NCBI GenBank assembly: GCA_021828185.1 | Contig: JAKASI010000001.1 | Location: 558,001-622,000, forward strand | Reading direction: 5' to 3' | DNA length: 64,000 nt | Source: an archaeon | GTDB lineage: Archaea; Thermoproteota; Nitrososphaeria; Nitrososphaerales; UBA183 | Made by a program: the position numbers and the translations under genes | The notes under the pieces: generated by a model | The model's database searches: none | Told to the model about the DNA's origin: nothing | Seen by the model: the letters and a program-made list of their open reading frames with translations, nothing else | Shown here: piece by piece, positions 1 through 57,624 of the stretch | Position numbering within the stretch: the stretch's first letter is position 1 | Layout: each line of letters begins with the position of its first letter

Positions 1-272
1 GCCGTTTCTACTAGGTGTCTCATCTCCTTTTGGGAAACATACACTAGCCTGCTCTTGAAGAAGGAGTATGCTATGTTACGCTCGTCTGGTGTCTCAAATT
101 GCCTTAGCCAAAGAGCTAGGTTCTCCACAAACCGGCTACCTGTCGAGAACTGCTCGTACTCGTCGTAACTGAATGCTGCCAGGGCCTGGATAATCGGACG
201 CTCCTGGGCTATCTGCTCAGGTTTCCATTCCATAACAGTGGCCAGGAGCCGTTCAGCGAGCTCGTCTTTCAC
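1..272 (-). CDS. Phosphoribosyltransferase-like protein, N-terminal part (runs off window)
   Basis: This is the first 90 or so codons of a minus-strand gene that continues past base 1. The GTG start at 272 overlaps the stop of the SIS-HAD gene by four bases (GTGA), so the two are probably translationally coupled. The visible protein is helical and acidic, with a stretch FSTGSRFVENLALWLRQF followed by RLVYVSQKEMRHLV. That pattern resembles, from memory, the N-terminal helical part of phosphoribosyltransferase-like proteins in predicted prokaryotic conflict systems. The PRPP-binding loop would lie outside the window, so the family call is tentative. Base composition is more AT-rich than the rest of the window, like the next two genes. 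Confidence 0.45.
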   Translation of the reverse strand, partial: MKDELAERLLATVMEWKPEQIAQERPIIQALAAFSYDEYEQFSTGSRFVENLALWLRQFETPDERNIAYSFFKSRLVYVSQKEMRHLVET

Positions 273-2209
273 CCAGCATCACTCTCTTTCTGCCGCCTGT
301 TGATCCTAACCGCAAAGGATCCGTTAGCGCTAATTCGGAGCGCTTCCAGGTATCGGAGCGTAACCGGGGGGCCTCTCATGCCCCGGGGGGCGAGATTCCA
401 GCACGTCTCCGGATTTTGGGACACCTGATCAACGCTCAGAGCGTTCGATTCGGCTAGCATCTCCCAATCGTTTCCCGGCCATTGCCCCATATCCCCAATC
501 ACAAGTACTTCGTCCGGCAATTCCAAGGACCGAGCTACCTTCTTAACTTCTCTTATGACACTAAGCTTCGAAGCTTTGGCCGTAAGGACATCGATGGAAT
601 GGCTAGACTCGAGCACGTGCAAATCTGGTACTCCTGAAGAATGCACGGCGGCCATCAGCGCATTCAGAAGATACATGTGCGTTCCATGGTTAGATGCCAT
701 GAAGGTCAACTGCTCGCCTCGCGCTTCAGGATTCGACAATTCCTGGCCCCCCTTACGAGTGCTCAAAATCCTCATGAACTGGACCAGCGACTTGCTTGTC
801 GGCAAGTTCCCGATCTGATTGTCTTGGTCCAGCCGAGAAATAACCGAGCCATTGTAGTAGCCAACGGCTAGCTTCGGCCAGAGTCTTCTTGGGAGGGCAG
901 AGCGAAGCGCCTTTCGCAGAGATTTGCCCCTGCCTGAGGCAATCCCGACGCAGACTCCGGAGTCGAGAATTGAGGCGAGTCTTGTGGAAATGCTCTCAGG
1001 CAAATCTCCAAATCTGTTCGACCGAGGACAAAGGGTTCCATCGTAATCAAGAACTAGCCCGCCAAACCTGGCCCGAGCGAGACTGTGCAAGAACGTCGAA
1101 TATCGCGACTTAAGGATTGCCAAGTCAACTTGCAAGAACGGCCCCCCCGACTGAAGTTTCCTTTCAATTGCCGCTGGGAGTTCGGCTTCTTCCCCATAGA
1201 ATTTGTGGTAATTCGTCCAGTATAGCCGTCTGCTTGGGGCAGGAATCCTGGGATGATTCAGGTCGATTTGCTTCGCGACAGATATCTCATTCACAAGACG
1301 CATGGTTCTGACTATGAGTTCTATTGAGCCCAAAGGACCCGAAAGCATGGTTGAAACCGTAGCCCGCGGAACTCGACGAGGGAAGCTGGCTACAGTAGAG
1401 TCTGCGATTTGCCCCGTTTCAGGAGTAATCAGCGCAAGGACGGCTGAATCTACGCTCTTCCAAAGCCAATTATGTCTTCCATGGGAGAAATTCCGGTAAT
1501 CTGAGATGCTGACCGAGCCTAGTGCGCCTTCAATCATCTTAGATTCGAAATCGTAAGCGGCTGGCTCACTCCACCCTCCGTACAAGAGCAGGAAAGACTT
1601 CGCTCTGCGAAAGGCAGCCAAACTCGTTTGCGTGTCAATTATAGGCTGTCTCATCTTGCTACTGGAGAGCAGACTCTCAAGGTCCTCCGGAAGAACCAAC
1701 TTCTGGTCTTCCAGGCTCGAGAAAGTTCTGGCGCACAGGATCGAAAACGCGAGGACGGAGTTCGTGGCTAGGAATCCGTCACGGTGTGGAAGGTTCATCG
1801 CCCATGTCGTCACCCAACCGGACTTGTTGGCCCTTGAGACCAAATCTGATTCAGCAGCTCCGCATAGCACAAGAATCTCCCTCGCCTCCCGGGCAATACT
1901 GAATTGCAGTGCACCAACAACGTCAGGGTTACGTCCCTTCGCTGAGATTAGTGCGACGGATGCCCTGCGGAGCACGGCTTTCCACGAAGCCAACCCCAGG
2001 GGAGTTGTTGGAGTGGCTGGCACTCCAGACGCCCTTGCTAGCATTGCAATGAATGAAGCAGTTGTGAATGAGCCTCCGGACCCCACGACAAGCAGGGGAT
2101 TCCCGAAAGTTCGTGAGAAAAAATCTGGAAGGTCTCCCAGGTTTGCCTTCTTTGCCCATCTATACGTTGAACTCAGCAGGTCTAGGTCATTTTCGAAGCT
2201 GTTTCCCAC
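269..2209 (-). CDS. Double SIS-domain plus HAD-phosphatase fusion protein
   Basis: This 646-residue two-part protein starts at GTG 2209. Residues about 35-330 look like a tandem sugar-isomerase (SIS) module: VVGSGGSFTTASF near 41-53, the SAKGRNPD loop at 89-96, and a second lobe with FSHGRHNW near 241-248, as in GlmS-type isomerase domains. Residues about 382-646 are a HAD phosphatase: motif I LDYDGT (Asp388, Asp390), motif II ASG at 424-426, Lys548, and GD/ND at 572-581. SIS domains bind phosphosugars and HAD domains hydrolyse phosphate esters, so a phosphosugar or nucleotide-sugar substrate is likely but unproven. It sits between a P-loop NTPase gene and a phosphoribosyltransferase-like gene on the same strand. 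The fusion is unusual for housekeeping metabolism. Confidence 0.8.
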   Translation of the reverse strand: MGNSFENDLDLLSSTYRWAKKANLGDLPDFFSRTFGNPLLVVGSGGSFTTASFIAMLARASGVPATPTTPLGLASWKAVLRRASVALISAKGRNPDVVGALQFSIAREAREILVLCGAAESDLVSRANKSGWVTTWAMNLPHRDGFLATNSVLAFSILCARTFSSLEDQKLVLPEDLESLLSSSKMRQPIIDTQTSLAAFRRAKSFLLLYGGWSEPAAYDFESKMIEGALGSVSISDYRNFSHGRHNWLWKSVDSAVLALITPETGQIADSTVASFPRRVPRATVSTMLSGPLGSIELIVRTMRLVNEISVAKQIDLNHPRIPAPSRRLYWTNYHKFYGEEAELPAAIERKLQSGGPFLQVDLAILKSRYSTFLHSLARARFGGLVLDYDGTLCPRSNRFGDLPESISTRLASILDSGVCVGIASGRGKSLRKALRSALPRRLWPKLAVGYYNGSVISRLDQDNQIGNLPTSKSLVQFMRILSTRKGGQELSNPEARGEQLTFMASNHGTHMYLLNALMAAVHSSGVPDLHVLESSHSIDVLTAKASKLSVIREVKKVARSLELPDEVLVIGDMGQWPGNDWEMLAESNALSVDQVSQNPETCWNLAPRGMRGPPVTLRYLEALRISANGSFAVRINRRQKESDAG

Positions 2210-2313
2210 GCATCAATCGGAGTTCAACGACGCAGTATAACGATTTAGGCGTCCTCCAGGAATGGAGAATGCCCTGTCCGCTCTAGTTCGGAGGAGGCAA
2301 TAAGGGCACCAGG

Positions 2314-2799
2314 TCAGGCAGACTTGAGAACTCGTTCTACTCGTGCTGCCTGAACATCGTAATCTTGGTCGCTTTCGACAGCGACAGCCCCAACTCGTTC
2401 CATCAGTTCATCGAATTCGGCGACCCCTCTCGCCGAGGGTTTCCTAAGATAAAGGATCGACACCTTGGCTGCTTCTGACTTCAAGAACTCTATGGGTTTC
2501 AGGATGCAATTGAAGTTGAGTTTGCCGTCTCGGTTCCTCATCAGGGTGAAGGGGAGTATCACAGTGACACAATCATTCTTTTCGCAGTACTGCAGCTTTT
2601 GGTCAATCAATCCTATTACTGCTTTGTAATCGCAAAAGACAGACTGTTCTTGAGGCGAGCTGAGGTACAACGCCACGAATCTGCCTTTGTATTTGAAGAC
2701 ATTTCGCGATATTCTGGGAAGATTTCCCATGAGCTTCTGCAGCGTCGACGTCTTTCCCGAATTCCGGGTTCCAATAATCAGGATTGAATGACCAATCAC
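2314..2799 (-). CDS. Small P-loop NTPase
   Basis: This is a 161-residue protein starting at GTG 2799. A Walker A motif GTRNSGKTS lies at residues 11-19 after a hydrophobic strand (SILIIG), so it should bind ATP or GTP. A hydrophobic strand near residues 77-84 (CVTVILPF) could carry the Walker B function, but no clear DE pair or GTPase NKxD motif is visible. It is much shorter than AAA+ or STAND ATPases, and I do not recognise the family. It is the first gene of the three-gene minus-strand cassette, about 100 bases upstream of the SIS-HAD gene, and shares its AT-richer composition. No Shine-Dalgarno sequence is obvious. Confidence 0.7.
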   Translation of the reverse strand: MIGHSILIIGTRNSGKTSTLQKLMGNLPRISRNVFKYKGRFVALYLSSPQEQSVFCDYKAVIGLIDQKLQYCEKNDCVTVILPFTLMRNRDGKLNFNCILKPIEFLKSEAAKVSILYLRKPSARGVAEFDELMERVGAVAVESDQDYDVQAARVERVLKSA

Positions 2800-2925
2800 T
2801 TGTATGTAAACGCTGAATTAGGCTCTAATCAATCTTTGTCCCATTGTTTCAGCCTGAGAATCAAAGGCTCTCCACGTCTTCAATTGAATGTCCTTCTCCT
2901 CTCCTCAGTTTGAGCATGGAAAATG

Positions 2926-3001
2926 TGCCCCGGCCGGGATTCGAACCTCATAGCTGGAGAGCGGTCTACTGTTTCTCACGACCTTCATGTTAAAAGCCAG
3001 C
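2926..3001 (-). pseudogene. Partial tRNA-Lys(UUU), anticodon arm to 3' end, with a 32-base intron
   Basis: Read on the minus strand, GCTGG (3001-2997), loop CTTTTAA (anticodon TTT) and CCAGC (2957-2953) form a perfect anticodon arm once 2989-2958 is removed as an intron at 37/38. A T-loop TTCGAAT and an acceptor 3' strand CCGGGGC plus discriminator A follow, ending at 2926. The D-arm and 5' acceptor strand (expected GCCCCGG) are absent upstream, and the T-stem has mismatches. The simplest reading is the 3' remnant left at the far end of an element integrated into tRNA-Lys. A trans-spliced 3' half is a less likely alternative. Confidence 0.6.
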
Positions 3002-3016
3002 GGTTCCCTCGCTTTC

Positions 3017-3247
3017 ATGGAACCTGCGGATTCGGGTCGTCGCTTGAGAACGGTGGACCTCCACGCCTTCAAGGAGAAGCTGCGCGTGAAGCTCCCCGAC
3101 GGCAGCCCCGTCCTCTCCGACCTGCTTCTTGAGCCCGACAGCATGCCGGCCGACAGGGCAGCGGTCCTCGTCCCCCACTATCTGCGGAGGCTGGAAAGAG
3201 AGCTCGAGCGGAGCGAAGCGCAGGGTCCGCTTGTCCTGCGTCTCTGA
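3017..3247 (+). CDS. Small hypothetical protein beside the integrase
   Basis: This open frame of 76 codons starts at ATG 3017; an upstream ATG at 2987 would run into the tRNA-Lys remnant. Third positions are strongly G/C as in the real genes of the window, which supports coding. The product is charged and mostly helical, with many Arg and Glu residues, and has no motif I recognise. It ends five bases before the convergent integrase stop. Position and size would fit an excisionase-like or accessory protein of the integrated element, but nothing in the sequence proves that. Confidence 0.5.
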   Translation: MEPADSGRRLRTVDLHAFKEKLRVKLPDGSPVLSDLLLEPDSMPADRAAVLVPHYLRRLERELERSEAQGPLVLRL

Positions 3248-3251
3248 CCGA

Positions 3252-4562
3252 CTACTCGGTCCTCAGGCCGACCACGGCCCTGCCGTTCGGCAGGTCCCTC
3301 TTGTAGTCCCACCCCTGCTCGATCCACGTCTCAAGCTCCGCGACCGGGACCACCTTCTGCGTGCCGCCGTTCAGGCCGAGCATCCGCTTCGACTTCTGCT
3401 GGATCAGCTCCTGCAGCCTGTCCATGTCGAGCTCAGATACGTTTCCCAGCGCCTTCACTTCCTCGTCGCTGTAACCGAACATCTTCAGGGCCTCGACCCT
3501 GGCCGTGCTCACGACCTCCCCCTTGTCTATGGTCGGCTGAACCACGGTCTCCAGGTGCTTCTCCGCCGCCCGCGCGTACGCCTGCCTCATCCCCTCGAGC
3601 AGGTCCTGGGGCAGCTCCCCCTTGTTCAGGGTGTACACGTGCTCTATGTCCCCAATGTGCCCCATCCAGAAGGTCCGGTAGTCCCTGATCACGTGCCCTT
3701 CCTGCTCCGCCCCCATCATCCTGGTGTCGAAGTACCTCCTGAGGACGTAGGGCCTCCACGAGAACCCCGCCGCCCTGATGGCGAACCTGATCGAGTCGGA
3801 GATGTTGTTTGTCCTCACGTGGCTCCCGATGCTGCGGGGGTTGTGGGGGTTCGCGGTCGCTATCGGGGATGAAGCGTCGATCCTCTCCTCCAGGGTGCGC
3901 CCCCTCCATTCCAGGTACTCCCTGACGTACCCGCACCCCTGCTCCGGGAGGAAGGTGAAGTACTGCCTCCCGGACTTCGATATGGTCCTCCTGACCACCA
4001 CGGTCGCGGGGACCCTGAGGAACCTCACCTTCCCGCCCTCCACCACCAATTCAGGGAGGTCCGACACCCTCAGCCCGTCGTCGGAGAACCTGTTCCCGAG
4101 GACCCCGGGACGGACCCCCGAGAACGCCATCAGGGCGCAGAGGACCTTCTTCTGCAGGTCGGCGTGCTCGAAGACCGAGTTCAGCTCCTGCCTGGTGGGC
4201 ACCCTCTCATTGTCGTACAGCCCCGTGTCCCGGGAGTACCTCACCTGGCGGGTCACCTCCACGTCGTTGAACCTCCACCAGGACTTCATTGTCTTCACGT
4301 ACCCCGCGATTGACGAGCTCCTCAGCCCCTCCCCCTCGAAGCGGGAGACAGCCTTCAGGAGGAACGCCCCGGCCTCCCCCCGCTCCATCTTCGCCAGGCT
4401 CCGGGGGGTGATCCCGAAGAGGAGGCAGGCGCGCCCTATGCGGCGGAGCGAGGTCTCGGCGTTTATCTTCGAGCCCCTGGCTATGTTCTCCACCCAGGAC
4501 GAGAACGTCTCGTCCTCGTCCATCAGGTGCCTGTAGGCGCTGAGCAGGAAGAGGTTGCCCAC
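3252..4562 (-). CDS. Tyrosine recombinase / integrase of archaeal type
   Basis: This 436-residue site-specific recombinase has an N-terminal core-binding region (about 10-130) and a C-terminal catalytic region (about 135-345). Catalytic signatures are Arg in AFSGVRPG, then YVLRRYFDTR (the usual HxxR box, with Tyr at the first position), MGHIGDIEHVYT with the His and a candidate nucleophile Tyr, and a C-terminal helical tail. Such integrases insert elements into tRNA genes. Fragments of tRNA 3' ends lie on both sides (2926-3001 and 4611-4636), which fits. The gene appears intact, with no frameshift. It differs from SSV-type integrases in not being visibly split by an attachment site. Confidence 0.88.
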   Translation of the reverse strand: MGNLFLLSAYRHLMDEDETFSSWVENIARGSKINAETSLRRIGRACLLFGITPRSLAKMERGEAGAFLLKAVSRFEGEGLRSSSIAGYVKTMKSWWRFNDVEVTRQVRYSRDTGLYDNERVPTRQELNSVFEHADLQKKVLCALMAFSGVRPGVLGNRFSDDGLRVSDLPELVVEGGKVRFLRVPATVVVRRTISKSGRQYFTFLPEQGCGYVREYLEWRGRTLEERIDASSPIATANPHNPRSIGSHVRTNNISDSIRFAIRAAGFSWRPYVLRRYFDTRMMGAEQEGHVIRDYRTFWMGHIGDIEHVYTLNKGELPQDLLEGMRQAYARAAEKHLETVVQPTIDKGEVVSTARVEALKMFGYSDEEVKALGNVSELDMDRLQELIQQKSKRMLGLNGGTQKVVPVAELETWIEQGWDYKRDLPNGRAVVGLRTE

Positions 4563-4610
4563 GCCCCTGGACGTGGCTTTCTGTTTTAACAGGCCCGGAC
4601 CTGGACTCGT

Positions 4611-4636
4611 ACGGGTTGCAAGACCGTCGGGCCCGC
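4611..4636 (+). repeat. tRNA 3'-end fragment, attachment-site-like copy A
   Basis: The stretch reads as a T-arm (ACGGG, loop TTGCAAG, ACCGT) followed by an acceptor 3' strand CGGGCCC and G. The core CCGTCGGGCCCGC recurs in the copies at 5892 and 6355. No D-arm, anticodon arm or 5' acceptor strand precedes it. It lies about 50 bases upstream of the integrase start, where an attachment site is expected. Confidence 0.5.
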
Positions 4637-4853
4637 GAAGCTCAATGTGAACTCTGTTTGACCGAAATAGCCAGAATCAGGCTATTACCTAATTAAGGAA
4701 ACTCGGGCGGAAGTCCCGGCGACCGCATGCCTCGCTGCGGAAAACCACTATTTGCTTCGAGAACTACATACGATGCGGGGAAGCGCGTTGAACTTCAGGT
4801 CCAAATCCTACCGCGCCAACTACCAGCAAGAAGCCTCCCGAGGGGGAAGACGC

Positions 4854-5042
4854 TCAGAACCAGCCTTTCTTGTCCTTGATGGCGGCCTTGACTTTCAGAG
4901 CAGTCTCGGCAGGGATTGGGTCCAGCTGGTGCGCCGCCTTCGCATGTTGAGCGATCTTAGGCATCAACTCTTCCTCCGTCTTGGCACTGGCCTTGAAGCC
5001 GCAGTCCATGCCGATGTCCTTGCAGGCAAATTCTTTGGTCAT
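4854..5042 (-). CDS. DUF1059 family small protein
   Basis: This is a 62-residue protein from ATG 5042. It opens MTKEFACKDIGMDCGF and continues KTEEELMPKIAQHAKAAH, matching the DUF1059 pattern: two cysteines near the N-terminus, then a helix ending in conserved His residues (CKD..MDC...H..H). The family is widespread in archaea and bacteria, and the Cys/His set suggests metal binding, but its function is not known. An AT-rich TATA-like stretch (GTAAATACC on the minus strand, near 5070-5078) lies about 30 bases upstream, consistent with a leaderless transcript. It is one of the few intact genes in this decayed tract. Confidence 0.8.
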   Translation of the reverse strand: MTKEFACKDIGMDCGFKASAKTEEELMPKIAQHAKAAHQLDPIPAETALKVKAAIKDKKGWF

Positions 5043-5054
5043 AGCAACCGACAA

Positions 5055-5891
5055 CCGGCATCGCGGGGTGGTATTTACGTTTGTTCGAAGTTACGCACAG
5101 TGCCAAGGAGGCGCGTTGGAAAATCAGCGAAGTACGCGCCAGCGTCTCTCTTCCTTCCCGGTTCTTCTGGGTCATGGACGACTGGAAGCCCAGGTAATCG
5201 CAAAGCACGTCAGAACGAAGAAGCCTCGGCAGGCCAAGGATTTGAGCCTGGAATATGGTCGTGGACACTTGACGAGCTCCTTCAGGCTCGGCATTCGCTC
5301 CGGGGCAGATTCACCCCCCGCGATGCCTCCGGCACCGCTCGCTCTGCTCGCTTCGCTCCCCCCTCTTTGCCCCTCCGCTCGTCCTTCGCCTTCACCCCGC
5401 CTCGACGCGGGGCCCTCGCTCACCCTGTTCGCTCGGGGGGTGTCGGCTGGTGCAGGCTCGCCAGGGAGGAGGGAGAGAATTGGGCTCTGATTGGAAAACG
5501 GGGGAGAGAACAAGTAGCATACCCCCTGAAGGAGGAAAGTACCGGTCTATTCCGAGGCGCCAAATACTTGGCGGCTGATCCGGAACCACCCATATGAGGC
5601 CTCACCTGACCATTCGACAGTGTGAGCAGGGTGATGAATGAGGTCTCAAGCAAGGTTGTGGTCGACCTGGGTTTTCTCTGCCCGTAAACCATCGGATTCG
5701 CTTAATTATTTAATCGCATCCCTTCCGACTCGAACCGTTGGCCTCCTTCCTTGAAAGGTACGCCCTGTATTCGCCTCTGTGGCGAGGGGTCAAAGCCCGT
5801 CCGTGGTGTTTTTATCCCGTTTCGTAGACTAGTATGCTACATTGGAGGCCGGAGCATCGGAAAAGCCCCGGAATCGAATGCCCCGGGATAC
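5055..5891. other. Gene-poor tract between DUF1059 gene and copy B
   Basis: No open frame here has the G/C-rich third positions or recognisable motifs of the neighbouring genes. Bases about 5325-5440 are low-complexity, built from recurring GCTCG/TTCGC words on the plus strand. Bases about 5700-5715 are AT-rich. The tract lies between attachment-like copies A and B and is probably decayed element DNA. Confidence 0.5.
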
Positions 5892-5910
5892 GATTCCCGT
5901 CGGGCCCGCA
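5892..5910 (+). repeat. 19-base direct repeat, attachment-like copy B
   Basis: This 19-base stretch (GATTCCCG...GGGCCCGCA) is identical to 6355-6373. It corresponds to the end of a T-arm plus an acceptor 3' strand (CGGGCCC). The stop of the AbrB-like gene falls immediately beyond it at 5911, so copies B and C bracket that single gene. Confidence 0.6.
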
Positions 5911-6258
5911 TCAAGCCAAGTTGTGAGACTCGGGCGTTGCTTTCCTGGCGACGATTTGACTCCCCTTTTGTAGCCAAGATATCCTCTCCACCTCATCCGC
6001 TGTCCATTTGAAGTTCAACGCTTCCCTGACATGCTTGGGCACAGCTGCTGTTCCGTCGCTGGTAAGGAGTGTCTTCGTCCAACTGGACTGAGGCGTTCCT
6101 TTCGTGACTACAATCTCGCCTCCCTCTTGCGTCCATAGCAGCCTTGTCAGTTTACCGGGGGTGAATCTCAGTCCCAACAACTCCTTTACCCGTTCTGCAA
6201 CGGTCGTCCTTTTTCCTCTACTGAGGATTATAGTTTCGAGAGGGATTGCCTTCGGCAA
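5911..6258 (-). CDS. Tandem AbrB/SpoVT-like DNA-binding protein
   Basis: This 115-residue protein starts at TTG 6258. It has two similar halves. Residues about 9-55 (ILSRGKRTTVAERVKELLGL ... GGEIVVTKGTP) and 63-110 (LTSDGTAAVPKHVREALNF ... GSQIVARKATP) each match the swapped-hairpin pattern: strand, P/T-x-x-V-R-E-x-L helix, acidic turn, V-x-K-x-x-P. AbrB-like domains bind DNA as transition-state regulators or antitoxins, normally as dimers; a tandem repeat could act as a one-chain equivalent. No toxin gene is adjacent. The gene lies exactly between the two 19-base direct repeats, as if carried by a mini-element or left after a recombination. Confidence 0.6.
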   Translation of the reverse strand: MPKAIPLETIILSRGKRTTVAERVKELLGLRFTPGKLTRLLWTQEGGEIVVTKGTPQSSWTKTLLTSDGTAAVPKHVREALNFKWTADEVERISWLQKGSQIVARKATPESHNLA

Positions 6259-6354
6259 GTCTGCATACGCTCCTTCTCATTGGCGATACTTAATCATGCG
6301 GGATGAATTCATGTCATAGACTGCAAACTCGAACCCGTGAATTCTCTCTGGTCA

Positions 6355-6373
6355 GATTCCCGTCGGGCCCGCA
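6355..6373 (+). repeat. 19-base direct repeat, attachment-like copy C
   Basis: This is the identical second copy of the repeat at 5892-5910, 463 bases downstream. Flanking sequence differs on both sides, so identity is limited to the tRNA 3'-end core. No complete cloverleaf can be folded with the bases upstream. Confidence 0.6.
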
Positions 6374-6544
6374 CTCACCCGAGGTCGGTTCCCGGCACTT
6401 CTTCCGTCAGCGCCGGTTGTCAACTTGTCAGTGTCTAATCCGGGTCCCCGCTAAAAACACCACTCTAGACGCCGACGACCAGGCGTGGGAGTACTCTCAG
6501 TCAGGCCGTCCTGATTCCGTCGGGGGCGGGGATCTTCTGACTTG

Positions 6545-6840
6545 CACCCCTTGAGGAGCGCGTAGTCGGTCCTTGCGGCTGCCTTGAACAACTCCTTGAT
6601 GTCGGAGAGGACGAAGTAATGCAGTTTCGCTGTCCTAATCATCCCCTTGAAGTCGGCGTGGAACTCGGGGATGCTCCTGTAGCCTAGGAACAAGTCTTCG
6701 CCAGATTTCTCGGCGGCCAGCTTTCTGAGGATGCTCGAGAGTTCGTCGGTAGTGAAGACGAGGGCGATTCATCAGTCAAGACCTTAGTCGGAGCTACGTC
6801 GAAGTTGAGATCCCTGACCTTCAGCCCAAGTCCCCCCACC
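6545..6840 (-). pseudogene. Remnant of a protein-coding gene with a frameshift
   Basis: On the minus strand, bases about 6840-6785 read LKVRDLNFDVAPTKVLTDES and bases about 6775-6550 read, in another frame, TTDELSSILRKLAAEKSGED ... YFVLSDIKELFKAAARTDYA with good archaeal codon use. A frameshift near 6780 separates the parts, and the frame after about 6540 turns to low-quality residues. I do not recognise the family. The parent protein appears helical and soluble. It is probably a broken gene in the decaying island. Confidence 0.45.
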
Positions 6841-6908
6841 CGCTTTCGGACGCTTGGGCCAAAGCACGAGACTTATACGGCGGCTCGGGGACGCCGCGTC
6901 GATTCGAA

Positions 6909-7295
6909 TTGGTGTCTGAAAAGATACTCCGCTTCCAGAACAAGAACAAGGACCTCGCTTCGTTGAGCCAGCAGATAGCGCAACAGCTCCAGTCTGAAGG
7001 TTACAAGACTAACATCGCGACCCCGCCCCTAGGGACCGTCATCCAGGCCCAGAAGGGAGGGATACTGAAGGACCTCGTCGCTGCAGAAAGGGCCTTTACC
7101 ATAATGGTCACGGGCCAGCCCAACGACTTCTCTGTGCATATAGGCGTCGGGAAGTTCTTCCAGAACCTCGGCGTGATGGCTGCAGAGGCGCTGCTCCTCT
7201 CAGAGCTCTTCCTGGCCGTGGACATACCCGAGATGCTCTGGACTGAGCATGTCGAGAAGGGCCTCGTAAGAGAGATCACGCAGATCGTGGGCTGA
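6909..7295 (+). CDS. Conserved-looking hypothetical protein
   Basis: This 128-residue protein starts at TTG 6909 or GTG 6912. It has a charged N-terminal helix (KILRFQNKNKDLASLSQQIA), a beta-rich middle (IVQ-type strands around IQAQKGG and TIMVTGQPNDFSVHIGVG) and a C-terminal helical part. Codon use is typical of the genome. I do not recognise a domain. The N-terminal alternation resembles small proteins with a hydrophobic patch-binding role, but this is not evidence of function. A TATA-like CTTATACGG lies about 35 bases upstream. The pseudogenes either side make it an isolated survivor. Confidence 0.6.
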   Translation: MVSEKILRFQNKNKDLASLSQQIAQQLQSEGYKTNIATPPLGTVIQAQKGGILKDLVAAERAFTIMVTGQPNDFSVHIGVGKFFQNLGVMAAEALLLSELFLAVDIPEMLWTEHVEKGLVREITQIVG

Positions 7296-7342
7296 GCAGA
7301 CAGAAAGGCGTTCGCGCAACCTGGGGAAAAGGGGCCAAGATT

Positions 7343-7525
7343 GGGTTTTCCGAGGAAGAGGTGCTGGAGGTGGACGTGGACAACGGGCCGGGGGCGTTCG
7401 GGAAGTCGCTGGGAAGCTCGCGAAGTCGAAGATCAACGTCGACTATCTACGTGACGACTTCGCCCTACGGAAGAGCCAGGGTCGTCACGGGGGTCCGCGA
7501 TGTGGCAAAGGCACTGCGTGCCCGG
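7343..7525 (+). pseudogene. ACT-domain gene remnant with two frameshifts
   Basis: Three frames joined in order give an ACT-domain-like sequence: EVDVDNGPGAFGK, then GKLAKSKINVDY, then YVTTSPYGRARVVTGV. The jumps fall near 7408 and 7453. ACT domains bind amino acids and regulate metabolic enzymes; DNGPGAFG-K-LAK-KINV-Y is the classic first half. No single frame encodes it, so the gene is broken unless two sequencing errors are present. It lies immediately after the 128-residue hypothetical gene. Confidence 0.55.
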
Positions 7526-7844
7526 GGCGAATGGGCGAGACGGGCGTCCCTTCTCCCGGACCGGGGGGACCAGCACGATTATTCATGTGGCGCTTTGAAC
7601 CAGTTGCAGGTCTCCAGGATGGAAATTTCGAATATCCTCCCTCTCCCGACCCGACCCTGGCTTGGGGACCTCGGACAGCCGTCTGGCTATGCGCTCCCTC
7701 GTGCCTACCTCTGCCGTTCTGAAGGACGTACCGGCCAAAACCACCGAGGACGCGGCCGGCCTTCCGTTCGCATCAACGGCTGAGGGATAGACACCTTCCC
7801 CGGCTGCCGAATCCATTTGGCGTTTCGACTTCGGCTGGGCGGGA
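7526..7844. other. Non-coding or decayed tract ahead of the radical SAM gene
   Basis: No convincing gene is present. On the minus strand, bases about 7816-7660 read SSVVLAGTSFRTAEVGTRER, which loosely resembles the start of a glutamyl-tRNA reductase (the R/K-T-A-x-V-x-x-R-E-R pattern). It may be a remnant, but the match is short. Confidence 0.3.
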
Positions 7845-7880
7845 TTGTATTTAACTAGTGTTAGTTATATTCCCCTCGCA

Positions 7881-9023
7881 GTGCGACCACCGTGGACACT
7901 GAGGACAGATGTCTCCCAGGCTCCGTTTTTCGTGTGCTGGGAGACTACGAAGGCCTGCCTTCTTGCCTGCCGCCACTGCAGAGCCAGGGCGATTCGGAGG
8001 TCCCTCCCGGGCGAGCTGGACCATTCGCAGGGTCTGGCGCTTATCGACCAGTTGCTGGATTTCGGAGAGCCATATCCTGCGCTACTCCTGACGGGGGGCG
8101 ACCCGCTCATGCGACCAGACTTCTTTGACCTCGTCGAGCACGCGAAGAAGAATGGAATCTACGTCGCCGTCGCTGCAAGCGTGACTCCCAGGCTGAATCA
8201 GGAGACAATAACTCGAATGAAGGAGCTGGACGTCGACATAATGTCGGTAAGCCTCGACGGGGCTTCCCCCAACACCCATGACAGGCTCCGCGGCGTCCCT
8301 GGCACGTGGCAAGGAACGATCCACGCTCTTCAGATAGCCAAGGACTCTGGGTTGAGAGCACAGGTCAACACCACTGTGATGAGGAGCAATATTGATGAGC
8401 TGGCCGGCATCTTCCAAATCGTGAAAGACGCAGGCTCGGCCGCCTGGGAAGTATTCTTCTTGATTCGGACGGGTCGGGGCGCTTCACTCGAAAGCCTGCA
8501 ACCTTCGGAGTGCGAAGAGGTGATGCACTTCCTCTACGACGCTTCTCAGTATGGCTTGCCCGTTAGAACGGCAGAGGGGCCGAGCTTCAGGAGGGTGCGC
8601 ATCGAGCGTCAGATGCAGGTTGGCCCGCCAACCAGCCAAGCCTATCAAAGACTATCGGTGCGGCTGCGAGCCCTCGCAGGGAGCCCGACAGCCCAGCCCT
8701 CCGTCAAGGCAACACAGACCGGGGACGGGAGGGGCATCATGTTCGTCAGCCACGACGGCGAAGTCTATCCGAGCGGGTTCCTGCCGATACGCACGGGCAA
8801 GGTTCCCGAGGACAAACTCGTCTCAATTTACAGGTCGAATGGGCTTTTCGCTGATTTGAGGGACTCCTCGAAGCTAAGGGGCCGTTGTGGCAAGTGCGAG
8901 TATCGGACAATCTGCGGAGGTTCGAGGTCTAGAGCGTTCGCAGAGCTCGGGGATGTTTTCGGAGAGGACCCCGCCTGCCCGTACGTTCCAGCAGCCAGCT
9001 ATGGTGTGTCACCGCTGGCCTAA
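7881..9023 (+). CDS. Radical SAM/SPASM protein, AhbC/AhbD/NirJ-like (tetrapyrrole maturation)
   Basis: From GTG 7881 this is a 380-residue protein; an earlier TTG at 7845 would place the TATA-like GTATTTAAC inside the gene. Residues 26-33 (C-x3-C-x2-C in CLLACRHC) bind the SAM-cleaving iron-sulfur cluster, and TGGDPLMRPD is the GGE-like SAM motif. The C-terminus has a SPASM-type CGKCEYRTICGGSR region followed by a last Cys (DPACPY). AhbC and AhbD convert didecarboxysiroheme to haem in archaea, and NirJ acts in haem d1 synthesis. The pattern CEYR-CGGSR-RA also fits the broader TIGR04053-type family. Its place beside hemLBDC supports a tetrapyrrole role; the exact reaction is inferred. Confidence 0.7.
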   Translation: MRPPWTLRTDVSQAPFFVCWETTKACLLACRHCRARAIRRSLPGELDHSQGLALIDQLLDFGEPYPALLLTGGDPLMRPDFFDLVEHAKKNGIYVAVAASVTPRLNQETITRMKELDVDIMSVSLDGASPNTHDRLRGVPGTWQGTIHALQIAKDSGLRAQVNTTVMRSNIDELAGIFQIVKDAGSAAWEVFFLIRTGRGASLESLQPSECEEVMHFLYDASQYGLPVRTAEGPSFRRVRIERQMQVGPPTSQAYQRLSVRLRALAGSPTAQPSVKATQTGDGRGIMFVSHDGEVYPSGFLPIRTGKVPEDKLVSIYRSNGLFADLRDSSKLRGRCGKCEYRTICGGSRSRAFAELGDVFGEDPACPYVPAASYGVSPLA

Positions 9024-9044
9024 ATCACGTGATCGATTCCAGTC

Positions 9045-9287
9045 TTGCTGAGGCTTGCCCGACACGAACCCTTGGCAGGCCTCGAGTCACCGGAAGGTTT
9101 CCTCGCCGCGGTCGGGGACCTGCGCGACGTCTGGAACAGGGACGGGAACAGGCGACTCAGGGAGACCTTCGAAAGTCGGACCAGCATTGTTGAAGACGCC
9201 ACCGAGCTGCTGGCGCCTGTGCTCGAACCTGCCCGCACGGAGCTTCCGGAGTGCTGCAGGACGTGCTACAGAATCGTGGGCGTGTGA
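9045..9287 (+). CDS. Small Cys-containing hypothetical protein
   Basis: This is an 80-residue protein from TTG 9045, 21 bases after the radical SAM gene and on the same strand, so probably co-transcribed. Third positions are almost all G or C, which supports coding. It is acidic and helical, with a C-terminal CCRTC motif (PECCRTCYRIVGV) that could hold a metal or iron-sulfur cluster. I do not recognise the family. It runs tail to tail with hemL. A partner or electron donor of the upstream radical SAM enzyme is one possible role, inferred from position only. Confidence 0.55.
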   Translation: MLRLARHEPLAGLESPEGFLAAVGDLRDVWNRDGNRRLRETFESRTSIVEDATELLAPVLEPARTELPECCRTCYRIVGV

Positions 9288-9314
9288 CTTGCCTCGCTTC
9301 AGGACCCAAGGTCC

Positions 9315-10607
9315 CTAGTGGCTGAGCCCCAGGTCACGGAAGGCCGTCCTGGAAGCCACGACAGTCTTCTCGATGTCGCTCTCCTCGTGCGCGAGCGACA
9401 CGAAGTTCGACTCGAAGGCCGAGGGGGGCAGGTAGATTCCATGTTTCAGCATGGCCCAGAAGAACTTCGGATACCTCGCATGCTCCGAACTCCTCGCTTC
9501 TGCGAAGGACCTGACTGGCGCTGACCCGAAGAAGATAGCGAACATCGAACCCACCCTGTTGATCGTGACTTCCACCCCCTCGGCAGAACCAGCCTTAGCC
9601 AACCGATGTTGGAGCGTTCCCGAGAGCTTCTCAAGCCGGGCATACGAGCCCCTTTTCAGGGCGCCGATGGTCGCGAGCCCCGCCGCGACTGCCACTGGGT
9701 TCCCAGACAGCGTCCCTGCCTGATAGACCGGCCCTTCGGGGCTCACCATCTCCATGATTTCCCTCTTCCCTCCGTAGGCCGCCGCAGGAAAACCTCCGCC
9801 CAGGACCTTGCCCAGGCAGGTGAGGTCCGGCCTCACCCCGTACAGCTCTTGGGCCCCGCCAGGCGACACCCTGAACCCCGTGACCACCTCGTCGAATATC
9901 AGAACCGACCCGTGTTCGGTGCAGAGCTTCCTGAGCTTCTCCAGGAACCCTGCCTCCGGAGGGATGACCCCCATGTTGGCTGCGACAGGCTCGACAATTA
10001 CCGCAGCGATCCGGTCCGAACCCTTGCTGAATGCCTCCTCGACCGCTCCCGGGTCGTTGTACGGAACCGTCAGGGTGTCTGCGACGGTCCCGGCAGTGAC
10101 CCCTGGCGACGAGGGAAGGTCAAAGGTCGCCAGCCCTGACCCACCCTGGGCCAGGAACGGGTCCGCGTGGCCGTGATAGCACCCTTCGAACTTCAGGACG
10201 GCGGCCCTGTTAGTATACGCCCTTGCCACCCTCAGGGCTGACATCGTGGCTTCCGTCCCGGAACTGACGAGCCTGAGCATCTCGACCGAAGGGACAAGGG
10301 AACGGACCTTCTCCGCCAGCCTCACCTCCGCCTCGGTCGGTGCCCCGAAGCTTGTGCCTCTTCCTGCTGCCCTGGAGGCCGCCGCCAGGACTCTAGAGTC
10401 TGCATGGCCGAGGATGAGCGCCCCCCAGGAGCAGACATAGTCGACATACCTGTTCCCGTCTGCATCCCAGATCTTCGAGCCCTTTCCGCGGGCGACGAAG
10501 AGGGGGTTCCCTCCCACGGCCTTGAACGCACGGACCGGGCTGTTCACCGCGCCCACCATGACATGGAGCCCCCTGCGATAGAGCTCGTCAGACCTCCTTC
10601 GTCTCAT
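9315..10607 (-). CDS. hemL: Glutamate-1-semialdehyde 2,1-aminomutase
   Basis: This 430-residue cytosolic PLP enzyme makes 5-aminolevulinate from glutamate-1-semialdehyde, the second step of the C5 pathway. Signatures seen are GAVNSPVRAFKAVGG at the N-terminus, SSGTEATMSALRVAR, the PLP-phosphate region FEGCYHGHAD, IFDEVVTGFR, and the Schiff-base Lys in LGKVLGGGFPAAAYGG. Length is normal for the family. It is the last gene of a minus-strand hemC-hemD-hemB-hemL run, with a 31-base gap after hemB. The product of HemA, encoded at 25505, is its substrate. Confidence 0.96.
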   Translation of the reverse strand: MRRRRSDELYRRGLHVMVGAVNSPVRAFKAVGGNPLFVARGKGSKIWDADGNRYVDYVCSWGALILGHADSRVLAAASRAAGRGTSFGAPTEAEVRLAEKVRSLVPSVEMLRLVSSGTEATMSALRVARAYTNRAAVLKFEGCYHGHADPFLAQGGSGLATFDLPSSPGVTAGTVADTLTVPYNDPGAVEEAFSKGSDRIAAVIVEPVAANMGVIPPEAGFLEKLRKLCTEHGSVLIFDEVVTGFRVSPGGAQELYGVRPDLTCLGKVLGGGFPAAAYGGKREIMEMVSPEGPVYQAGTLSGNPVAVAAGLATIGALKRGSYARLEKLSGTLQHRLAKAGSAEGVEVTINRVGSMFAIFFGSAPVRSFAEARSSEHARYPKFFWAMLKHGIYLPPSAFESNFVSLAHEESDIEKTVVASRTAFRDLGLSH

Positions 10608-10638
10608 GACCGATCCCCCGGTTCGCCGAGGAGCCTGC

Positions 10639-11634
10639 CTACGCTCCCCAGCCTTCCTTCATCCACCTGGCGGCCTGTTCCGCGAAGTAGGTGATGATGA
10701 GATCGGCCCCTGCCCGCTTCATCCCCACCAGGATCTCGTAGACGGCGGCCTTTTCGTCCAGCCACCCTCTCGCGGCCGCGGCCTTGACCATCGCATACTC
10801 TCCGCTGACGTCGTAGGCGGCGAGCGGCAAATCAAACCTCCTCCGCGCTTCAGAAATCACGTCGAGGAAGGCCAAGGCAGGCTTCACCATTACAAGGTCC
10901 GCCCCCTCTCTGACATCAGCTTCGATCTCCCTCATGGCCTGGCGTCTGCTCGCCACGTCCATCTGGTGGCTCTTCCTGTCTCCGAAGGAAGGCTTCGACC
11001 CTGCCGCCGACCTGAAGGGGGAGTAGAAGGTGGAGGCGTACTTCGCCGAGTACCCCATGACGAGCGTATCCTTCATCCCTGCCCTGCTGAGCGCTTCCCT
11101 GATGGCCAGGACCTGACCGTCCATCATGGCGCTGGGGGCCACTACGTCGGCGCCTGCTGACGCGTACTCTACTGCAGCCTTCGCAAGCAGCGGGAGGGTT
11201 TTGTCGTTGTCTATCTTCTCCCCGGTCAGAACTCCGCAGTGGCCATGGCTCGTGTATTCGCACAGGCAGACGTCGGTCATTATCACAAGTTCAGGGAATC
11301 CCTTCCGCAGCGACCTGACCGCCCTCGGCACCACGCCATCCTTGGCGTAGGCTCCTGTCCCCATGGCGTCCTTCTTGGAAGGAACTCCGAAGAGAAGGAC
11401 GTTCCGGACACCTGCCTTCGCCAGCCTGCCGACGTAGGCATCCAGCTTGTCCACGGAGTACCTGTTGACTCCGGGCATCTCCTCTATGGGCTCGACCTTG
11501 CCCTTCGCGTCGAGGACAAAAATCGGGGCGACGAATTCCTCCGGGTGGAGCCTGGTTTCTCTGAACGACCTGCGGATCCAGTCTCTCCCCCTCAGCCTCC
11601 GCAGTCTGGGCTCGAAGCTCCTCCCTACGCTCAA
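10639..11634 (-). CDS. hemB: Delta-aminolevulinic acid dehydratase (porphobilinogen synthase)
   Basis: This 331-residue enzyme condenses two 5-aminolevulinates to porphobilinogen. The Zn-site cysteines appear in DVCLCEYTSHGHCG, the first active-site Lys in GYSAKYASTFYSPFR and the second in DLVMVKPALAF. EEFVAPIFVLD near the N-terminus is also typical. The ATG at 11634 overlaps the hemD stop (11631) by four bases, so the genes are translationally coupled. The Cys-rich metal site indicates a zinc-type rather than magnesium-only enzyme. Confidence 0.96.
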   Translation of the reverse strand: MSVGRSFEPRLRRLRGRDWIRRSFRETRLHPEEFVAPIFVLDAKGKVEPIEEMPGVNRYSVDKLDAYVGRLAKAGVRNVLLFGVPSKKDAMGTGAYAKDGVVPRAVRSLRKGFPELVIMTDVCLCEYTSHGHCGVLTGEKIDNDKTLPLLAKAAVEYASAGADVVAPSAMMDGQVLAIREALSRAGMKDTLVMGYSAKYASTFYSPFRSAAGSKPSFGDRKSHQMDVASRRQAMREIEADVREGADLVMVKPALAFLDVISEARRRFDLPLAAYDVSGEYAMVKAAAARGWLDEKAAVYEILVGMKRAGADLIITYFAEQAARWMKEGWGA

Positions 11635-12392
11635 CGCACCACCAGCTTACCTGCCTCCATAAGAAGTGCATCAAAAGTGTGGACCCTGGACGCGACCACC
11701 CGCTCGAACCCCGCATCTCTTGCCTCGTTGGCGGTAACCGGTCCTATACAGATGGCGAGGGCGTCCGTCTTCAGTCTTGCAAGCACCGCCGGGGCCAGCC
11801 GTTTTATGAGACCCTCCACTTCTGAAGGGCTCCCTAGAAGCACAGCCCTGGCACCTTCGACTCCCGCTCCTCGGTACCGGCTCCCAACGAGACTCGTCCG
11901 GTAGATGGGGACTGAGGTCACGGAGAATCCCCGGCCTTCCAGGATGCTTACAATCTCCTCCCCTGCCTTCTCGGCTCTCAACAGCAGTATCCTGCGACCG
12001 GACCCTGTCGGAAGCTGGCGGCCCAGGGCCGCGGTGGTGTACTCGGAGGGGACGAAGGCGGCCTCGAATCCCTCTCTCCTCAGACGGACCGCGGTGACCT
12101 CGCCCACAGCGGCGATCCTCGGGAGGTCCCCGCCTCCCCCTGCCCTGACTTTCCTAATCATCCGGACAAAGGTGGAAGCGCCCCTGGGCGAGGTGAGCAC
12201 GACCCAGTCGAAGTCCGCTACGCCCGCAAGAACCTTGTTCACTCTGGGGAGGTCAGACGGTTGCAGGAACTCCACGGTGCTGATGGAGATGGGCACCATG
12301 CCGAGGTCCCTGATCCTGGGGGAAAGCTCCCTGTTCCCTTCGGCGGACCTTGCGATCACGACCCTCGGTCCACTGGCGTCCTTCGGCCTCAA
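11631..12392 (-). CDS. hemD: Uroporphyrinogen-III synthase
   Basis: This 253-residue protein has the two-lobed HemD layout with low overall conservation. Recognisable parts are WVVLTSPRGASTFVRMI (the T-S-x-x-G/A segment), IAAVGEVTAVRLRREGF and the C-terminal AICIGPVTANEARDAGF, all typical of HemD active-site loops. It cyclises hydroxymethylbilane to uroporphyrinogen III, the branch point for siroheme. It overlaps hemC upstream and hemB downstream by four bases each. HemD sequences are weakly conserved, so the operon context carries part of the call. Confidence 0.93.
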   Translation of the reverse strand: MRPKDASGPRVVIARSAEGNRELSPRIRDLGMVPISISTVEFLQPSDLPRVNKVLAGVADFDWVVLTSPRGASTFVRMIRKVRAGGGGDLPRIAAVGEVTAVRLRREGFEAAFVPSEYTTAALGRQLPTGSGRRILLLRAEKAGEEIVSILEGRGFSVTSVPIYRTSLVGSRYRGAGVEGARAVLLGSPSEVEGLIKRLAPAVLARLKTDALAICIGPVTANEARDAGFERVVASRVHTFDALLMEAGKLVVR

Positions 12393-19851: not shown

Positions 19852-20982
19852 ATGACGACCCAGGGGTTCACCTTCGATCCCGCTGAAAGGACCAACAAGA
19901 GGCTCCCGATGCCGAGCGCAAGCCAGCTGCCGGAGCTCGTACGACGGAACTACGGGGCCTGGGCCGACAGGAAGTTCCATGGAAGCGGAATAATCGAGCA
20001 CATATCAAAGACGGGCGAGAGCCTGTTCACCATCAAGGTGGGGCTCCCACCCAACTCGAGGCTGAGTTCGAAGACCCTCAGGAAGATAATCGAGGTCGCA
20101 GACACCTACGGCATCAAGTCCGTAAGGGCGACCAGGGGCATGAACCTCGAATTCTTGGCAGACTCTCTCGACAATGCCAGGAAGATTGTCGAAGAGATGA
20201 AGCAGGCTGGCTTCCCCGCTGGAGGGTGGAAGAACTCGCTCTGGCATGTGACTTCGTGCACCGCCTACCTGACCTGTACCACGGCGGTCGTGGACGCGCC
20301 GACGATTACGAAGGTCCTCTCCGACAAGCTCTTCCCCTACTTCACCGGGCAGGCGCAGCTCCCCGCCAAGCTGATGTTGTTCGTCTCGGGGTGCACGAAC
20401 GTCTGCGCCGGGACGCTCGGAGGCGACATTGCGCTCGTGGGGCACTGGGGACAGGTGCCGAAACCCGACCCTGAAAGAATCAAGTTCTGTCTGCCCACGA
20501 GCGCGGAGGCGCTGAAGAATGTGACGCCAGACGTCGCGGCTGTGTGCCCTGTAGGTGCGGTGAAGCTCTCGGCGACAGAGGAGGGCAAGGTCGCGATACA
20601 CATAGACGAGAAGAAGTGCATAGCCTGCGGAAGGTGCAAGAACGTCTGCGACTACTTTGACTGGGATCCTGACAAGATAGGGGTGGCGATATTCATAGGC
20701 GGGAAGACCAGCAACACTGGGTCGGGGCCGAGGCTAGGGTACAGGGTCATCCCGTGGGTGCCGGTCACTCCGCCGGACTACAAGGAGATAACAGCCGCGG
20801 TGACCGAGATAATCGAACTCTGGAAGTCGACCGCCCAGGAAGGTGAGAGGCTCGGAGACACCATAGACAGGGTCGGGGTCGGCAAGTTTACCGAGATGCT
20901 TGGCGTCCCCGTGAGCAGGCACAACATGCCGGCGCAGGTCGACTGGAACTTCGGCGTGAGGCAATTCGTGAAATACGTATGA
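19852..20982 (+). CDS. dsrB: Dissimilatory sulfite reductase beta subunit
   Basis: This 376-residue protein starts at ATG 19852, three bases after dsrA. Cluster ligands appear as C136-x5-C142 (CTAYLTC) and C181-x3-C185 (GCTNVC). The ferredoxin domain has a full set, C256, C259, C262 and C266 (CIACGRCKNVC). Typical DsrB instead has a CC-x3-C second motif without C-x5-C, so this copy looks like the ancestral sulfite-reductase pattern. DsrB carries the catalytic siroheme in the alpha2-beta2 complex. The N-terminal substrate-region Arg/Lys-rich strands (VRATRGMNLEF) are present. Confidence 0.95.
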   Translation: MTTQGFTFDPAERTNKRLPMPSASQLPELVRRNYGAWADRKFHGSGIIEHISKTGESLFTIKVGLPPNSRLSSKTLRKIIEVADTYGIKSVRATRGMNLEFLADSLDNARKIVEEMKQAGFPAGGWKNSLWHVTSCTAYLTCTTAVVDAPTITKVLSDKLFPYFTGQAQLPAKLMLFVSGCTNVCAGTLGGDIALVGHWGQVPKPDPERIKFCLPTSAEALKNVTPDVAAVCPVGAVKLSATEEGKVAIHIDEKKCIACGRCKNVCDYFDWDPDKIGVAIFIGGKTSNTGSGPRLGYRVIPWVPVTPPDYKEITAAVTEIIELWKSTAQEGERLGDTIDRVGVGKFTEMLGVPVSRHNMPAQVDWNFGVRQFVKYV

Positions 20983-57385: not shown

Positions 57386-57449
57386 CACCCGGCAAGACGG
57401 GACTCCCCGCCCAACCTTTAAACCGAGTCCGGCGTCGGCCGGTCCACGT

Positions 57450-57547
57450 GGGGCCGTTGTGTAGCTTGGTCCAGCATACCAGAGTGAATGACCTTCACGG
57501 TGAGCCTGGGGCGCTGGCGATCTCGGGTTCAAATCCCGACGGCCCCA
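57450..57547 (+). tRNA. tRNA-Pro(GGG) with a noncanonical intron in the anticodon stem
   Basis: Acceptor strands GGGGCCG and CGGCCCC pair perfectly with discriminator A at 57547; the T-arm TCGGG/TTCAAAT/CCCGA is perfect. The anticodon arm forms only after about 22 bases are removed between positions 30 and 31: CCAG, then C, loop CTGGGGC, GCTGG, giving anticodon GGG. The spliced-out segment can form a bulge-helix-bulge-type fold with flanks. A TATA-like CTTTAAACC lies about 27 bases upstream. CCA is not encoded. Confidence 0.88.
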
Positions 57548-57624
57548 TCTGATTTCCGGGTCGAGCAGGCGGGCATGTAGCCGCCGGCGCTTTAATAGAC
57601 GGGGCATACGCCGCGCCGTGACGC

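Follow-up and report, generated by a model that had tools for sequence, protein, structure and literature searches.

What an AT-richer group of minus-strand genes next to an integrase-like gene does for its host is the question raised by the left edge of a 64,000-nucleotide stretch of DNA from an archaeon (Thermoproteota, Nitrososphaeria, Nitrososphaerales, UBA183; assembly GCA_021828185.1, contig JAKASI010000001.1, positions 558,001 to 622,000), here called the window. The original prediction, made from the letters of the window, described a cassette of three genes, a P-loop NTPase, a double-SIS plus HAD fusion and a phosphoribosyltransferase (PRTase)-like protein, and suggested a nucleotide-sugar-based defence system. 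According to the comparison with relatives described below, the window probably holds the edge of a five-gene, horizontally spreading operon directed against invaders, a function to which its genomic associations point. The features at this edge are as follows:

3..272, minus strand: gene 2, N-terminal 90 residues of a PRTase-CE protein, truncated at the edge of the window (profile of the relatives)
269..272, minus strand: GTGA overlap of 4 bases between the stop of gene 1 and the start of gene 2, indicative of translational coupling
269..2209, minus strand: gene 1, fusion of a double SIS phosphosugar isomerase with a HAD-IIB phosphatase, 646 residues (profiles and model)
2314..2799, minus strand: P-loop frame, 161 residues
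3252..4562, minus strand: integrase-like (tyrosine recombinase-like) gene, context and not a component (PF00589 below cut-off plus a motif seen by eye)

Gene content, order and coupling

A protein search with the SIS-HAD protein yielded 807 relatives at E 1e-3; apart from the query itself, 119 homologues are listed, with 33-39% identity over 94-100% of its length, and the source names among the relatives include 'fructoselysine-6-P-deglycase FrlB-like protein'. A genome scan confirmed 246 stretches with relatives, and the 80 best of these were fetched. Together with 5 plasmid loci and the window these make up the 86 loci (numbered L) that were examined with profiles built from clusters of open reading frames (ORFs); the SIS-HAD gene of L045, skipped by the ORF caller, was recovered by its profile. 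Clustering of the ORFs revealed four further genes after SIS-HAD, encoding PRTase-CE, an ORC-CDC6-like AAA+ ATPase, a tandem-CARF protein (CARF6) and a PfkB sugar kinase. The three-gene boundary drawn originally was thus too narrow, and the window cuts the unit.

All five genes are present in each of the 69 loci that reach 6.5 kb or more past SIS-HAD, and in 69 of the 86 loci they lie on a single strand in the order SIS-HAD, PRTase, ORC, CARF, PfkB. Thirteen of the 17 other loci, the window included, extend less than 6.5 kb beyond SIS-HAD and follow the standard order as far as they reach. PfkB lies on the opposite strand in L034, L084 and L085 read PRTase, ORC, CARF, SIS-HAD, PfkB, and L046 has CARF ahead of ORC, an order made doubtful by a long open frame; an ORC-CARF fusion suspected from the 1041-residue frame of that locus was not confirmed. 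The genes are tightly packed, with median intergenic gaps of -4, -4, -10 and -8 bases (over 72, 71, 70 and 63 loci) when measured from the starts of a simple ORF caller. The PRTase gene accompanies SIS-HAD in every locus except L002, where the contig stops 28 bases past SIS-HAD. Beyond the five genes, every ORF cluster is confined to 10 or fewer of 81 loci. Judged by these relatives, the window would contain gene 1 and the beginning of gene 2 (the first 1.1 genes), and because the set is complete in all 69 loci of sufficient length, the ORC-CDC6-like, CARF6 and PfkB genes are expected beyond its left edge.

The HAD domain of gene 1 was identified with PF08282 (E 7.6e-6, over the cut-off), TIGR01484 remaining below its cut-off. 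It retains D388 and D390, K548, G572-D573 and G579-N580-D581, that is, the DxD nucleophile, the lysine and the acidic motif IV of HAD phosphatases. The SIS portion was recognised in the AlphaFold model (predicted local distance difference test score 86.7). In the PDB this model comes closest to the isomerase domain of GlmS (E 1.8e-12), and it also matches NagB-II deaminases. In the alignment with NagB-II 8eol, the K, E and H of its motif correspond to residues K224, E227 and H243, and the catalytic SIS glutamate and histidine are retained in 80 of 80 proteins, that of the window included. Only proteins whose length is 0.8-1.25 times the median of their family entered the motif counts (SIS-HAD 80/80, PRTase 72/73, ORC 74/77, CARF 68/72, PfkB 64/66). 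By its modelled fold and catalytic Glu and His, gene 1 is predicted to be a double-SIS aldose-ketose isomerase of the GlmS/NagB-II type, in line with the 646-residue fusion proposed at the outset. None of the PADLOC profiles matched the SIS-HAD protein.

The 90 residues of gene 2 match the full-length PRTase profile of the relatives with an E value of 7.2e-37, which bears out the PRTase-like nature ascribed to this partial gene. The piece ends before the loop that binds phosphoribosyl pyrophosphate (PRPP) and is not matched by PF24390. The PRTases of relatives possess the PRPP-binding loop; PF24390 matches them over the cut-off (L004, L026), and the PADLOC models of the retron III-A PRTase (PRTase_III-A) match with E values of 3.7e-14 and 3.4e-12. 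An ordinary metabolic protein as gene 2 and a fixed place in core sugar operons, either of which would have refuted the original prediction, were not found among the relatives, and the idea that SIS, HAD and PRTase meet here as enzymes of phosphosugars and nucleotides is supported. A CARF fold was found with VIA-align for the model of the L026 protein, in which no fused effector domain was recognised. Foldseek alone placed cation-chloride cotransporters at the top (template modelling score ~0.25, root-mean-square deviation ~18), and the VIA-align result was preferred. The PfkB kinases of the operon share an inserted CPxCG zinc-ribbon-like stretch (L026:14056-15240; PF18073 weak, below cut-off), which looks unusual for this family.

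Triad and sugar pair

A comparison of the pairwise divergence of the five proteins across 58 loci revealed two sets. Correlations of 0.928-0.959 were obtained among PRTase, ORC and CARF, with ORC and CARF the most tightly linked (r 0.959), and SIS-HAD and PfkB correlate with r 0.884, as opposed to 0.593-0.641 between members of different sets; 500 permutations gave no value above 0.136 for any pair. The covariation of SIS-HAD with PfkB does not stem from proximity because the two genes occupy opposite ends of the standard operon. In other layouts they are adjacent, following the PRTase-ORC-CARF triad in L084, L085 and L180 and preceding it in L181. Triads without sugar genes were also found, composed of ORC and CARF6 with PRTase-CE (L146; longer stretch L176:7331-11015), with HD-CE (L147; longer stretch L177:7745-11727) or with a metallophosphoesterase (L148, L149; longer stretches L178, L179:6912-11370, which resemble each other and are possibly not independent). 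The first stretches comprised ~5 kb and the longer ones covered ~7 kb upstream and 7-8 kb downstream; in the latter neither SIS-HAD nor PfkB was matched at E 0.01, L178 stopping 0.3 kb after the triad. These triads are examples and no measure of prevalence, as the search with the ORC family was limited to four scored candidates in each genome and did not recover the seed genome G030, which has the PRTase of the operon. Based on the split in covariation, the joint movement of the pair and the existence of bare triads, the five-gene operon is a triad joined to a sugar pair. The first gene of the ORC and CARF6 systems appears exchangeable among PRTase-CE, HD-CE and metallophosphoesterase. On a plasmid of S. 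meliloti (L085:7767-20025), the five-gene set is accompanied by a NADAR gene and, ~1 kb on, by a second PRTase-ORC-CARF triad.

Genes 2-4 are already contained in Pfam and PADLOC under conflict or defence names, and they are of the same families as the triads in which PRTase-CE (PF24390), HD-CE (PF24391) or a metallophosphoesterase precedes an ORC-CDC6-like protein (PF24389) and CARF6. In contrast to L176, L177, L178 and L179, the operon includes SIS-HAD and PfkB, and it encodes a longer PRTase than the bare triad (median 376 residues in the relatives versus 294 in L146/L176). With type III-A retrons it shares the PRTase matched by the PRTase_III-A models, but this PRTase stands beside an ORC-CDC6-like ATPase and a CARF protein, and no reverse transcriptase appeared in clusters of more than 10 of the 81 operon loci, among which no search was aimed at reverse transcriptases. 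In the literature, PRTases are reported to be typical of III-A retrons (PMC12548924) and to be probable effectors of retrons (PMC12548924, PMC9122126), with a mode of action described as unknown (PMC9122126). The latter text also reports an anti-phage system, tested experimentally, in which a PRTase partners DprA; like the operon as a putative defence system, it combines a PRTase with a DNA-binding partner. Ter systems reportedly pair PRTases with HAD enzymes for signals derived from nucleosides (PMC7824862), a pairing that recurs in the operon as a putative defence system. The passages concerned do not name SIS, PfkB, ORC-CDC6-like or CARF proteins as components of the Ter and DprA-PRTase systems (PMC7824862, PMC9122126).

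The CARF protein of the operon differs from the CARF effectors of type III CRISPR systems (the nuclease of structure 6sce, which we take to be Can1, Csm6, Card1 and Cad1) in that no fused nuclease or effector domain was recognised and in that it sits in this operon. The fructoselysine pathway employs the SIS deglycase FrlB and the PfkB kinase FrlD. In the operon, too, an SIS protein with a retained K/E/H motif pairs and covaries with a PfkB kinase, but here SIS is fused to HAD and tied to a defence-like triad.

Spread and genomic neighbourhood

The operon occurs patchily in Bacteroidota, Pseudomonadota, Planctomycetota, Myxococcota, Acidobacteriota, Chloroflexota and other phyla; among 296 genomes of Bacteroidota only the seed genome has it. 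In the tree, the copy of the window has a long branch (1.18) and groups as sister to a copy from Dehalococcoidia; the support of 93 is not strong. Plasmids carry the operon in 18 of 72,556 records, from soil and plant-associated bacteria, and five of the 18 were opened.

The flanks of the operon are rich in defence families. The scan took in proteins of at most 900 residues from 20 of 31 genomes, 148 out of 156 in the flanks and 146 out of 299 among the controls; the control stretches are situated near contig ends, at distances of 55 kb to 2.4 Mb, and the scanned sets (A2, A3) consist of unrelated proteins taken one by one, not of true alignments. At E 1e-12, 159 PADLOC models were matched by the 148 flank proteins of 20 loci compared with 4 by the 146 controls, figures that count models and not proteins, because one protein may match several models and genes of the same system are not independent. 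Among the first 25 flank models, which are those listed, are type I restriction, PrrC, AbiEi/AbiEii, CBASS cyclase, E2, phospholipase, ThsB, SduA, SoFic and dGTPase. Seven of the defence families, selected from this flank list, were then mapped in the 20 genomes. Seven of the 20 loci had one or more matches no farther than 10 kb from the operon, in total 10 matches (G004 SduA; G006 AbiEii and ThsB; G020 and G022 SoFic; G024 AbiEii; G027 cyclase and AbiEii; G028 type I methylase and PrrC). Against a background of 111 matches in ~101 Mb, ~0.4 would be expected in a random 0.4 Mb.

Free of such selection, two shared ORF clusters proved to be the R (HsdR, E 8e-40) and M (E 1.2e-91) subunits of type I restriction, identified from one member each, in L031; they are present in 7 of 81 loci (L018, L024, L025, L029, L031, L038, L068). 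An AbiEi cluster, identified in L040:14033-15639, follows the CARF gene directly in 8 of 80 genome loci, all Bacteroidales. PfkB then follows in six of the eight, and the short stretches L048 and L053 show no PfkB. These AbiEi genes are mostly accompanied by AbiEii, families that were scanned in L040. The last gene of the operon has a NADAR gene as its opposite-strand neighbour in 3 of 86 loci (L011:15235-15801, L083:19093-19617, L085:14882-15379), too few for a sixth member, although many loci end soon past PfkB; a frame in L180:13871-14443 resembles NADAR by eye. A gene common to five Bacteroidales loci upstream of SIS-HAD has no relative in the PDB.

In the window itself, the three minus-strand frames of the original prediction are present, that at 3-272 being open at the edge, and the GC contents of 0.51 (3-272), 0.53 (269-2209) and 0.48 (2314-2799) are below that of the integrase gene (0.65) and those of most other frames, as expected from the AT-richer composition noted there. 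The GTGA overlap of SIS-HAD with the PRTase gene was also recovered. The P-loop protein turned out to be an orphan: with 51 candidates scored among 5.8 billion proteins, the search returned only the protein itself, which is also found in no cluster of at least three loci. On these two results it is rejected as a component of the operon. Its PADLOC mad8 match (E 1.6e-5) is probably a mere Walker-motif match because an ORC-CDC6-like protein also matches mad8, weakly (E 9.6e-4). The integrase-like gene has a weak profile match (PF00589, E 0.03), and its tyrosine-recombinase-like C-terminus, with a conserved-looking R/GH/Y motif, was recognised by eye. The attachment remnant was not substantiated, there being no convincing repeat pair in window positions 1-12000, and the window does not reach the far end of the island.

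Farther along, 19852-20982 and 25505-26821 encode a dissimilatory-type sulfite reductase beta subunit (TIGR02066) and a glutamyl-tRNA reductase (TIGR01035), both over cut-off, among what appear to be other genes of the haem pathway. The CCA-adding enzyme is of the archaeal type (TIGR03671, 284.7 bits, cut-off 281.3) and thereby marks the host as an archaeon. A 101-nucleotide tRNA-Ile with anticodon AAT was called at 57449-57549, possibly a false call or an intron; the archaeal tRNA-Ile anticodon is usually GAT, and AAT is odd for an archaeon.

Proposed function and competing explanations

The patchy and partly plasmid-borne occurrence amid defence genes favours the defence function suggested originally. 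The operon is likely to contain a ligand sensor because of its stand-alone CARF-fold gene, and it may sense or edit a phosphoribosyl or nucleotide-sugar metabolite. In the favoured model, the ORC-CDC6-like ATPase and the CARF protein would form a sensing and switching unit in which CARF binds a small nucleotide-like ligand, and this unit would control the PRTase as the effector. Active PRTase would transfer phosphoribosyl from PRPP, or a relative of PRPP, to an acceptor, or would drain PRPP, such that the infected cell is halted. PfkB and SIS-HAD would act as a dedicated phosphosugar pair (kinase, isomerase or deglycase, phosphatase), comparable to FrlD and FrlB, that makes the sugar substrate of PRTase or the ligand of CARF, or clears the product to reset the system.

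Several points weigh against this model, in addition to the way in which the 159 models were counted. None of the seven mapped families has a match inside 10 kb in 13 of the 20 loci; these families were picked from the flank list, which biases toward matches, and some of them are common (Fic-type in 18, AbiEii in 14 and type I methylase in 12 of 20 genomes). No match was obtained in 50,697 phage records. Defence islands hold other accessory genes too, and SIS-HAD with PfkB would suit a salvage pathway as well. The window displays gene 1 and part of gene 2 only.

Within a defence system, the sugar pair might instead serve self-protection, a possibility that we entertain tentatively. The product of PRTase would then be toxic, and SIS-HAD and PfkB would degrade or recycle it as an antidote module added to the triad. 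This would agree with a pair that moves as a block and covaries more closely within itself than with the triad, and with the NADAR genes next to the operon and the similar frame in L180, since NADAR proteins cleave ribosyl bonds. Arguing against it is the small number of loci with NADAR.

A doubtful variant exchanges the roles of messenger synthesis and effector. SIS-HAD and PfkB would provide a phosphosugar to which PRTase adds a base, and the resulting nucleotide-like messenger would bind to CARF, leaving the ORC-CDC6-like ATPase as the true effector. The absence of a recognised effector domain fused to CARF, the tight covariation of CARF with ORC and the nucleoside-derivative signals ascribed to Ter systems (PMC7824862) are compatible with this scheme. 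However, triads exist without the sugar pair, which therefore is not the general source of the signal, and the PRTases of retrons are described as effectors (PMC9122126, PMC12548924). Defence by a non-oligonucleotide, phosphosugar-nucleotide messenger, made by PfkB, SIS-HAD and PRTase and sensed by a stand-alone tandem CARF protein that switches the ATPase, is a rather unlikely reading. If true, it would mean a new immune second-messenger chemistry in many bacterial phyla and, provided that this copy is complete, in an archaeon.

Improbable is a mobile operon by which a glycated amine or an unusual pentose is catabolised or salvaged, such that PfkB phosphorylates, SIS cleaves or isomerises, HAD dephosphorylates and PRTase reuses the sugar as a nucleotide under regulation by the ORC and CARF proteins. 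The FrlD/FrlB-like pairing of a PfkB kinase with an SIS deglycase-like enzyme, the retained active-site motifs and the plasmids of soil and plant-associated bacteria would fit. Beyond the five genes, however, no cluster is widely shared, and therefore a transporter or regulator cannot be a fixed part; moreover, the operon is rare and patchy with defence-rich flanks, and kindred triads start with HD-CE or a metallophosphoesterase with no sugar genes nearby. A chance neighbourhood of an ordinary metabolic SIS-HAD gene and an unrelated PRTase fragment, conceivable from a window with merely 90 residues of gene 2, is refuted as far as the window reaches by the profile match of these residues and by the company of the two genes in every locus but the truncated L002, and can be practically dismissed.

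Our literature search found no description of the five-gene operon, an earlier one being possible. Three of the five genes belong to conflict or defence families, but their strict link to a sugar kinase and an SIS-HAD fusion points at a definite small molecule. The operon thereby makes it testable what PRTase effectors, those of retrons included, modify and what is bound by CARF proteins that act apart from a fused effector.

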